Program-made: the position numbers and the translations under genes
In this document: positions 14,574 through 29,695 of the stretch, in pieces
Layout: each line of letters starts with the position of its first letter
Numbering within the stretch: position 1 is the stretch's first letter
Assembly: GCA_019752375.1 (NCBI GenBank)
Contig: JAIEMG010000205.1
Location: 1 to 64,000 of the forward strand
DNA from: Gemmataceae bacterium
GTDB taxonomy: Bacteria; Planctomycetota; Planctomycetia; Gemmatales; Gemmataceae
DNA length: 64,000 nt
Direction: 5' to 3'
The notes under the pieces: model-generated
Seen by the model: only the letters and a program-made list of their open reading frames with translations
What the model was told of the DNA's origin: nothing
Databases searched by the model: none

Positions 14574-14703
14574 AATGCCATTAACTTAGGGGAGCAACCG
14601 AGGAAAACCCTCCCGTGGCACGGACATTTCTGTCCGTGCAATCGTGAAACTGCACGGACAGAAATGTCCGTGCCACCGGGATCTCGCCTACGTTAATGGC
14701 ATT
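14574..14703. repeat. Nested palindromic repeat element, 130 bp
   Basis: Outer 12-base perfect arms AATGCCATTAAC / GTTAATGGCATT bracket an inner pair of perfect 26-base arms (14,615-14,640 and 14,651-14,676). Each inner arm is itself a hairpin around CACGGACATTTCTGTCCGTG. It fills most of the gap before the acyltransferase gene; the remainder to 14,867 shows nothing else. Confidence 0.92.
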
Positions 14704-18871: not shown

Positions 18872-18985
18872 GGCGGGACTCCATCGAGGATCGGGACGGC
18901 GAGGTTGCAGTGTACCGCTTGCCGCCCGGTCCTGAAAGCAGGTTCGACCGGTCGCTTGGGAAGGTCAAGAAGGGATCTTCAGGCA

Positions 18986-19170
18986 AGCCGGGGGGCGTGA
19001 GCCCCCGGATTCTGCGATCTTATCCCAATACCGTTCAATTAGGAGCAAGTGTTCAGTAACTGCCGGCCATGAAATAAGGACTTACGTTCGCGCCATGACC
19101 AGAATCGAGTGAACATTTGCTCCTAATTGAACGGTATTGGATCTTATCCGGGGGCTCACGCCCCTCGGCT
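18986..19170. repeat. Palindromic repeat split by a MITE
   Basis: Arms of 24 bases (18,986-19,009 and 19,147-19,170) match with one mismatch around the core GGGGCGTGAGCCCCCGG. Removal of the MITE and one target copy would leave a loop of about 14 bases, like the other palindromes of this chromosome. Confidence 0.85.
19026..19139. mobile_element. 114-bp MITE with terminal inverted repeats and 10-bp target duplication
   Basis: The ends are perfect inverted repeats of 23 bases (CAATACCGTTCAATTAGGAG and onward), with partial matching for some ten more. The element is flanked on both sides by GATCTTATCC (19,016-19,025 and 19,140-19,149), a direct target duplication. It encodes nothing. It sits in the loop of an older palindrome. 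The parent transposase is not in the window. Confidence 0.88.
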
Positions 19171-19189
19171 CACCTGGAGCGTTCGATTC

Positions 19190-23118: not shown

Positions 23119-23141
23119 GACGGCAGCCTTTCTCAGCGTCA

Positions 23142-23666
23142 GTCCGAAAAGGGGTCAGGCATGCTCTGTAGAAAGCCCCGATTTCGCGGAGGTTGCGGCC
23201 GGCACAGCCGGCCCTACAGGCCTAAATTCTTGTAGGGCCGGCACAGCCGGCCGCAACCGTACGGTGCCTCAATGCCTGGTTTTCTACAAAGCATGCCTGA
23301 CCTGCTTTGTAGAAAACCTCGCCCTCGTTACCGGGCTCTGCCCGGTAACGCACTGCCCGCGAGGCTCTGCCTCGCGGCAGTGAACGGTCCGCCATCTGCC
23401 GATCCCGCCAGGGAAGGGCTCGCGAGGCAGAGCCTCGCCGGCAGTGCGTTACCGGGCAGAGCCCGGTAACGAGGGACCTCCGTGAAACCAGGGTTTTCTA
23501 CAAAGCTTGTCTGACTTGCTTTGTAGAAAACCCCGAAATCCTCGGGCGAGCCGGGAGCGTGAGCGACCGGAGTTCTACGAGACCTTGAAGAACCCCGGTC
23601 GCACACGCTCCCGGCTCGCCACGAAAGGGCGGTTTCCTACAAAGCATGCCTGACCCCTTTTCGGAC
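23142..23666. repeat. Three-module palindrome array bounded by inverted repeats
   Basis: The outer ends (23,142-23,174 and 23,634-23,666) are inverted copies, perfect over 24 bases. The same border word (GCTTTGTAGAAAACC) recurs inverted at two internal hubs (23,279-23,318 and 23,492-23,532). Between borders lie three different palindromes: arms 23,191-23,218/23,231-23,258 (28 bases, perfect), 23,323-23,378/about 23,419-23,474 (about 56 bases, near perfect), and 23,545-23,570/23,595-23,620 (26 bases, one mismatch). No protein-coding potential is seen. Confidence 0.92.
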
Positions 23667-23672
23667 AGACTC

Positions 23673-24803
23673 TCACTTCTCCCGGCGCAATTCGTATTGG
23701 TGCGTGGCCGGCACTCGCAGGCGGGCAATCTCGCGTTCCAGCTCTTCGATCAGGGGATCGAATTCGGGAATCTCCTTGGCATTCTGTCCCTGCTCGTTCT
23801 TGCGGAACAGGAACAGGTACGTCTCGTTCTGCGGCCGCCAGCGGTGGAAATAGGTCTGGTTCTTCTCGATGATCTTCGCCCGCAACTGCTCCAGTTGTTC
23901 CAGGTCCGGCCCGGCCGGCAGCCGCACGCCCTTGGCCCATGCGGCCGCATCGGCGCTGAGCACCTTTTTGCCGTCGATCAGCAATTCGTACTGACCCGGT
24001 TTCAGGCCGGGATACTTCAACGTCTGTGCGAACGGCCCCCCCAGCGGCGGCAGCGTATCGAGGTGAAAGTCAAATTGTCCGCCATCCGGCCCGCCTTCCA
24101 CGTCAATGTCGCCCGTGCCTGGCAGCGTGCGGCCGGACACGGCGCGCCCCACGCTCATCGCCGACTTTCGGTAGCCCTCGTCGGTCAGATGGATGCCGTT
24201 GTCGGTCAGCGGGGCCTGCGCGGCGAGCAGCTCCGACAGATCGACGAAGGCATGGCCGCGCTTCTCCGCCGTCTTGCGAAGTACGTCGCGATAGAGGCGA
24301 AGGTTCTTGTTGCTCTCGGTCGGATCGGGCAGCGGCGGTCCGAGCTTTTCCTGGTCCTGGGGTCCCAGGATGACGATGCGGGCCTTCGTCTGCGCCAGCG
24401 TGTCGAGCAGCGTATCGAGGCCTTTCTGGAAATTCGGCAAACCGGATTCGCCGGCAAACGACTCGTTCACTCCATAGGAAACGAGGAGGACCGTCGGCTT
24501 GAGCGCGATCACGTGCTCGCGCAAGTGCTTGAAGCCATCCGCCGGACCGCCGAAGCGGGCGCGGGCCTCGCCCCAGACGGTGTCGCCGCTCCAGCCGAGG
24601 TTGCGAAAGGTGATGTCCTTGTCGGGATGCAGGGCCGTCAGCACCGTCTCCCAGGAACCGTGCCGCTGCTCGCGTTCGATCAGCGTATTGCCGAGAAGGA
24701 CCACGCGGTCGCCGTCCTTGAACTCGAACTTTTCCGGCGGGGCGGCAGCCAGCGATGCGGGAAGCGCGGCAATCAGCGAGCAGCAGAGAAGGAAGCGTCT
24801 CAA
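23673..24803 (-). CDS. Secreted SGNH/GDSL-like hydrolase family protein with altered motifs
   Basis: 376 aa from a TTG start (24,803) preceded by GGAG at an 8-base spacing, giving a signal peptide MRRFLLCCSLIAALPASLAA. The SGNH order is clear: a block I strand VVLLGNT, block II Gly in NLGWSGD, block III GVNES, and block V NGIHLTDEGY. The canonical GDS is GNT and the canonical DxxH is NxxH, so the Ser and Asp are both changed. I recall similar changes in planctomycete relatives, so this may be a distinct subgroup. An extracytoplasmic esterase or a binding role are both possible. Confidence 0.8.
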   Translation of the reverse strand: MRRFLLCCSLIAALPASLAAAPPEKFEFKDGDRVVLLGNTLIEREQRHGSWETVLTALHPDKDITFRNLGWSGDTVWGEARARFGGPADGFKHLREHVIALKPTVLLVSYGVNESFAGESGLPNFQKGLDTLLDTLAQTKARIVILGPQDQEKLGPPLPDPTESNKNLRLYRDVLRKTAEKRGHAFVDLSELLAAQAPLTDNGIHLTDEGYRKSAMSVGRAVSGRTLPGTGDIDVEGGPDGGQFDFHLDTLPPLGGPFAQTLKYPGLKPGQYELLIDGKKVLSADAAAWAKGVRLPAGPDLEQLEQLRAKIIEKNQTYFHRWRPQNETYLFLFRKNEQGQNAKEIPEFDPLIEELEREIARLRVPATHQYELRREK

Positions 24804-24933
24804 GGGATTTTCTCCGAGTGGAAAGCCCGGTTGGTCGTCCGGCGGGAATGCGATCAGCAGATGCGTTTGTCGCAGAGGCCGGGGCACGCGTCAAGTAGCC
24901 AGCCGGTTTCGTGCGCGTTCACTGCCGCACTCT

Positions 24934-29447: not shown

Positions 29448-29695
29448 GCCGCGTAACAATAAGTTGAACAATTGCACGTAGGACGGATTTCCAATCCGTC
29501 CCCAGAAAACCGGACGGATTGGAAATCCGTCCTACAGGAATTGCACAAGTGATTCTTGCGCGGATCCTTAGCGGGCCGCGTAACAATAAGTTGAACAATT
29601 GCACGTAGGACGGATTTCCAATCCGTCCCCAGAAAACCGGACGGATTGGAAATCCGTCCTACAGGAATTGCACAAGTGATTCTTGCGCGGATCCT
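29448..29695 (+). repeat. Tandem duplicate of a 121-bp unit containing a palindrome
   Basis: Two apparently identical 121-base copies (29,448-29,568 and 29,575-29,695) repeat with a period of 127 bases. Each contains inverted arms of 24 bases around CCAGAAAACC, built on GGACGGATTTCCAATCCGTCC. Followed by CATTCGTCATT-type short repeats to about 29,770. No gene is present up to 29,927. Confidence 0.92.

Follow-up and report, generated by a model that had tools for sequence, protein, structure and literature searches.

Tandem REPIN-carrying MITEs in an older palindromic element: a probable origin of a palindrome array in a Gemmataceae genome

REP dimers lying in long palindromes have been reported from Anabaena variabilis (GTAG-15) and Halothiobacillus neapolitanus (CGTC-1), and no border palindromes free of REPs were found (PMC3733652). 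IS elements that target REPs are also known (PMC1525189; ISPpu9, PMC8450116). Among insertion sequences, IS903B has the ends GGCTTTGTTGAATAAATC and a 9 bp repeat (PMC10569121), and IS903-group elements of Paracoccus are ~1.05 kb long with 9 bp repeats (PMC3281130). Searches of the open-licence literature turned up no description of MITEs whose REPIN contents can be exchanged, and little has been written on how transposon ends and REP hairpins are mixed and matched.

The locus compared with these systems is a palindrome array in a 64,000-nucleotide stretch of a Gemmataceae genome, referred to below as the window. The array is very probably a set of nested and tandem REPIN-carrying MITEs, assembled stepwise by standard IS/MITE transposition inside an older palindromic transposon. 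Its elements resemble bacterial MITEs such as RUP, NEMIS/Correia, Nezha and ERIC in being short and non-coding, with terminal inverted repeats (TIRs), target-site duplications (TSDs) of fixed length and many dispersed copies; they differ in that the interior is one of several unrelated REPINs and not a remnant of a parent IS. Inverted REP doublets, one of which flanks a probable RAYT gene, are shared with the REP/REPIN-RAYT system (PMC2817692, PMC3116915), and REP A is GTAG-tagged like the GTAG REPs of PMC3733652; many REPINs of this genome, in contrast to that system, lie between TIRs that belong to a DDE-type element and are flanked by TSDs. The palindromes of Anabaena and Halothiobacillus likewise hold REP dimers regularly within an inverted border sequence, whereas the section of that report which describes them does not interpret the borders as ends of a transposon and gives neither a TSD nor an autonomous IS nor any exchange of contents (PMC3733652). 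As with the REP-targeting IS (PMC1525189; ISPpu9, PMC8450116), a mobile element prefers a palindromic repeat, but the target is here the arm of a MITE-like palindrome and its duplicates are reused, giving tandem arrays.

The array lies between a GDSL-lipase gene (23673-24887, - strand) and a DUF1569 gene (- strand). A 15 nt border word was located at 23163-23177 (+, two mismatches), 23278-23292 (-, exact), 23304-23318 (+, exact), 23492-23506 (-, exact), 23518-23532 (+, exact) and 23631-23645 (-, one mismatch); nine matches with up to three mismatches were obtained in the 64 kb window, against 0.9 expected from dinucleotide shuffling (maximum of 100 shuffles, 4). A preliminary description had placed three palindromes each inside inverted copies of this word, and both the six words and the palindromes were recovered in that arrangement. 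Of the arm lengths proposed there (28, about 56 and 26 bases), the first was reproduced for palindrome A (28 nt, 23191-23218/23231-23258, 89%) and the second came to 55 nt for palindrome B (23322-23376/23421-23475, 98%); the third had to be extended to 37 nt for palindrome C (23545-23581/23584-23620, 89%), 26 being just the best-paired part. Matching outer arms (23135-23189/23619-23673), overlooked in the preliminary description, enclose the entire array, which folds as single-stranded DNA at -244 kcal/mol (-101 +/- 5 kcal/mol for shuffles).

Defined from pairs, the repeated ends are 16 bp long (TGCTTTGTAGAAAACC), one base longer than the border word. With these limits MITE 1 (132 bp, 23162-23293; TIRs 23162-23177 and 23278-23293) contains REPIN A (23191-23258), two inverted GTAG-tagged REPs (GTAGGGCCGGCTGTGCCGGCC); MITE 2 (205 bp, 23303-23507; TIRs 23303-23318 and 23492-23507) contains the REP-type palindrome B (23322-23475), made of CTCGTTACCGGGCTCTGCCCGGTAACG plus CGCGAGGCTCTGCCTCGCG, inverted; and MITE 3 (130 bp, 23517-23646; TIRs 23517-23532 and 23631-23646) contains REPIN C (23545-23620), an inverted pair of GGCGAGCCGGGAGCGTGAGCGACCGGAG. 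Hub 1 (23294-23302, target site TGCCTGACC) is common to MITE 1 and MITE 2, and hub 2 (23508-23516, target site TGTCTGACT) to MITE 2 and MITE 3, so that the 9-mers and modules follow in the order GGTCAGGCA / A / TGCCTGACC / B / TGTCTGACT / C / TGCCTGACC. The borders, previously taken to be shared back to back at the two hubs, do form inverted pairs there; between their 16 bp forms lie exactly 9 bp.

The border word is the terminal inverted repeat of a dispersed MITE family. In the 8.46 Mb genome the 15-mer has 87 copies with at most one mismatch (reversed control, none), and the uniqueness that would have spoken against the preliminary description was not seen. The sites were retrieved and combined into 37 TIR pairs for a TSD test. 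Perfect duplications of 9 bp were found for 15 of the 37 and several others agreed at 8 of 9 positions, while at lengths of 4-8 and 10-13 bp none of the 37 pairs was perfectly duplicated. Mean flank identity at length 9 was 0.78, compared with 0.42 for shuffled pairings of the 37 pairs, a control inflated by flank sharing at a hot spot. Clean examples are GTTAGCGTT (L033), CGTCGGGAT (L041), GTTGGCGTC (L028) and CCTCAGTTT (L061). The copies have the TIRs in common, are duplicated at a fixed 9 bp, are mostly 75-349 bp long without a transposase gene and number 45 complete copies plus fragments.

The hubs are TSDs between successive insertions. Hubs of 9 bp also occur at other tandem loci (L043, GGTCAGGCA; L035, AGACGCAGC; L062, GGTCAGACA; L153, GGTCAGGCA), as would result if a target, once duplicated, were hit again by later insertions. 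The 9-mers beside the MITEs of the array are imperfect (7 of 9 for MITE 2, 7 of 9 for MITE 3, and 4 of 9 for MITE 1, where they are inverted), so decay and recombination have to be assumed. An inverted motif on both sides, as at MITE 1, was also present at L013, L060 and one element of L036.

The outer arms are those of a host palindromic element (23136-23672). Its left arm (23136-23161, +) ends in the motif GGTCAGGCA (23153-23161) and its right arm (23647-23672, -) is TGCCTGACCCCTTTTCGGACAGACTC; it is flanked by a 3 bp TSD, TCA at 23133-23135 and TCA at 23673-23675, the latter being the stop codon of the GDSL-lipase gene (TGA on the - strand). Empty copies of 91 bp (L101, L108, L116 and L119) have the form (TNA)G[A/C]GTCTGTCCGAAAAGGGGTCAGGCACCGTTG...CAACGGTGCCTGACCCCTTTTCGGACAGAC[T/G]C(TNA), with the motif in both arms, and this motif (GGTCAGGCA/TGCCTGACC) is the hot spot of the MITEs. 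Matching 3 bp TNA flanks were found at 10 of 15 host copies (shuffled pairings: mean 3.5, maximum 8). The loop is retained at L005 and L012, where MITEs occupy both host arms; at L036 and L121 the two arms come from different palindrome types, which points to recombination. Because the duplicate in the window doubles as the stop codon of the adjacent gene, the host palindrome may often land at stop codons. Its TNA duplicates include TAA, TGA and TCA (window 23673-23675; L101, L116, L055, L057). A core GGTCAGGCACC...GGTGCCTGACC with other matched outer arms (GGCAATCCGAAAAGG, GCGATCGAAAAGG, TTTAGCAAAAAGG) was also noted at L097, L107 and L122.

Every one of the 45 complete MITEs has a REP inside, drawn from four families: A in 18, B in 19, C in 5 and the C/D type in 3. 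Modules A and C are dispersed REPINs, two inverted REPs around a short spacer. REP A has 130 genome copies; about one third of the 30 loci inspected lack TIRs of the TGCTTTGTAGAAAACC type, and several of these sit within a second border type, GCTCCGTCAAGCCT. Many genome copies of REP B are likewise without TIRs. REPIN C, without TIRs, immediately flanks a Y1 transposase gene on either side (L161, 1255-1830, 191 aa; Y1_Tnp over the cut-off, NF047646 match below its cut-off), so a module does adjoin a REP-like transposase, as the preliminary description had proposed to check; for REPs A and B no adjoining RAYT gene turned up in this genome. A third border type, AATGCCATTAACTTA, holds REP D and a further REP and has one copy in the window (14574-14703). 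Since REPs occur bare or in other border types, ends and contents are not tied together. On one side the inner flanks of A (CCGATTTCGCGGAGGT) and B (CTGGTTTGACGGAGGT) are alike at 12 of 16 positions and diverge at the start of the REP, C being weaker; judged from this alignment, the likeness suggests one MITE backbone in which REPINs may have been exchanged. The earlier suggestion that the modules had been captured or built stepwise agrees with the border copies across the genome, with modules occurring singly and in other combinations, and with palindromes lying bare, in other borders or, for C, beside the REP-type transposase gene.

Autonomous IS copies with the same ends were found in other Planctomycetota. 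The element at L242 (3138-4143, 1006 bp) has the TSD GGTCAGACC twice and encodes a 351 aa transposase; it sits inside AGGGGTCAGACC...GGTCAGACCCCTTTT, near-identical to the hot-spot motif of the present genome. A second element at L171 (1501-2516, 1016 bp) has the TSD CTTCGTACT twice. The two transposases are 42% identical and were assigned to the DDE type of the IS5 family by the pattern Y-2-R-3-E-6-K, by PF01609 (PF13751 sub-threshold) and by NF033579 (IS5 family, cut-off 140), which L242 passes with 148.4 bits and L171, at 133.7 bits, falls just short of. The 9 bp TSD, the GGCTTTGTTGAATAAA-like ends (11 of 16 bases) and the lengths of 1006 and 1016 bp, set against about 1.05 kb, agree with the IS903 group. 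PF13737, the IS903-type transposase domain, was unmatched in the L242 and L171 transposases and membership of the IS903 group is therefore not claimed; this profile gave no match in 95 family genomes, where the control was equally silent and the result thus uninformative. The MITE TIR TGCTTTGTAGAAAACC shares 11 of 16 bases with IS903B GGCTTTGTTGAATAAATC (PMC10569121), and the 9 bp duplications and the IS length of ~1 kb recall the IS903 group (PMC3281130), the difference being that the model passed by L242 is that of the IS5 family as a whole, NF033579, with PF13737 unmatched.

The present genome (92% complete, 391 contigs) yielded neither an autonomous IS with these ends nor a gene closely related to its transposase, and none of its six DDE_Tnp_1 matches has the ends; an end match with four mismatches by a DDE_Tnp_1 gene at L095 was discarded as wrongly oriented and at chance level. 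The MITEs may thus be without their IS, or this IS may be encoded in sequence absent from the assembly; many of the 391 contigs end inside these repeats. The same ends were present in a few other Planctomycetota; at L258, L257, L183 and L198 they have 9 bp duplications, some imperfect, and other palindromes inside, and the REP enclosed at L258 is present 26 times in that genome, in part within TIRs and in part bare. Outside Planctomycetota, exact 16-mer matches in GTDB were for the most part regarded as coincidental.

The following origin is proposed, drawing on the observed ends, duplication lengths, dispersal, hot spot, bare REPs, link of module C to a RAYT gene and autonomous IS elsewhere. 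First, the older palindromic MITE (3 bp TNA duplication; 91 bp in its empty form) would have inserted at the stop codon of the GDSL-lipase gene. Its arm motif GGTCAGGCA/TGCCTGACC is a preferred target of a second MITE family (TGCTTTGTAGAAAACC ends, 9 bp duplications), presumably mobilized in trans by the transposase of the IS5-family elements with matching ends known from other Planctomycetota. Three such MITEs would have inserted successively, the 9 bp duplicate of each being reused as target and leaving the hubs between back-to-back ends; we infer this order of events. The host loop would have been lost afterwards, probably through recombination between MITEs in both arms. The different contents would predate the array: the backbone would carry REPINs, RAYT-type mobile hairpins, in place of an interior, so that various unrelated palindromes come to be framed by the same ends. 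Most secure in this account are the ends, the 9 bp duplications, the dispersal and the nesting; least secure are the manner in which REPINs may have entered the MITE backbone and the help they may give to its spread.

Four other readings were weighed. If RAYT (Y1) alone had spread a REP/BIME cluster, the border words would be part of the REP unit; the contents are indeed all of REP type, REPIN C flanks a RAYT gene and REPINs have been reported to insert into or beside one another (PMC3116915). This reading is nevertheless very improbable given borders with 9 bp TSDs, full-length DDE-transposase IS with the same ends, and REPs found without borders and within other border types. Even less credible, to the point of being scarcely worth retaining, is a recombinase-built, integron-like array with border words as recombination sites and palindromes as cassettes: the copies are for the most part solitary and scattered, with a 9 bp duplication that differs from copy to copy, no fixed attachment site is seen, and arrays are a minority found mostly at the MITE hot spot, although common inverted borders, unrelated inserts and back-to-back hubs do resemble cassettes. 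Integron-like cassettes, a pure BIME and tandem duplication were all rejected because of the TSDs and the unrelated contents.

The assembly is fragmented, with many contigs ending inside these repeats, and could in principle have joined separate repeat copies into a chimera. The assembler, however, tends to break and not to join at such repeats; every module and hub is marked by variants of its own (TGTCTGACT; GGTTTCCTACAAAGC at the right end; GCTCTGTAGAAAGCC at the left end), several elements also lie together at L005, L012, L035, L043 and L153, and the outer TSD is preserved as TCA on both sides, which leaves a chimera highly unlikely. There is similarly little to be said for a structure maintained by the host as a terminator or RNA-stability element: the position between two genes on the same strand (GDSL lipase and DUF1569, both -), abutting a stop codon, and the very stable fold would suit it, but strong folding follows from the palindromes, copies lie at many unrelated sites, and an incidental effect on transcription, while possible, would leave the anatomy unexplained.

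Under successive MITE insertion into a host palindrome, the earlier statement that the array falls outside the usual REP/BIME and IS models is not supported: TIRs and 9 bp TSDs account for the borders and the hubs, and the contents follow from the REPIN model. What is unusual is only the combination of IS-type ends with REPIN contents; the parts are of known kinds. RAYT-type REPINs and DDE-transposase MITEs, usually kept apart, are here joined by TSDs, an autonomous IS and bare REPs, and reuse of a duplicated target site offers a route to large compound palindromes in bacterial intergenic DNA. A testable account is also obtained for REP dimers within longer palindromes of other phyla (PMC3733652). 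A wider proposal is made tentatively, at somewhat less than even confidence: IS5-type MITE ends may have repeatedly and independently enclosed host REPINs across Planctomycetota, with cargo swapped among TIR families (A with TIR1 and TIR2; D with TIR1 and TIR3) and perhaps required for spread, REPs travelling by DDE as well as by RAYT. If true, mixed cargo and ends would mean a second route of REP spread, independent of their own transposase.

Several further arrangements were observed. The third border type (AATGCCATTAACTTA) also occurs at L005 (246-371 and 1389-1488) and L025 (141-250), with REP doublets including GGCACGGACATTTCTGTCCGTGCC and REP D and, at these two loci, ~10 bp direct repeats at the ends. 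A second RAYT-like gene (L160) is adjoined by a different REP (GGCCAGACAAGAGTGTCTGGCC), so at least two REP-RAYT pairs are present in this genome. Palindrome B is split by another long palindrome (GGAGACAGCTGAAAAAGTCCTACGGG...) at L019, L031 and L055, a further level of nesting. In the window, one palindrome encloses another at 18977-19179 (the outer arms contain AGCCGGGGGGCGTGAGCCCCCGG; the inner ones are 19025-19071/19094-19140), and 29478-29662 is a direct duplication of ~127 bp in which the REPIN GTAGGACGGATTTCCAATCCGTCC is present twice.
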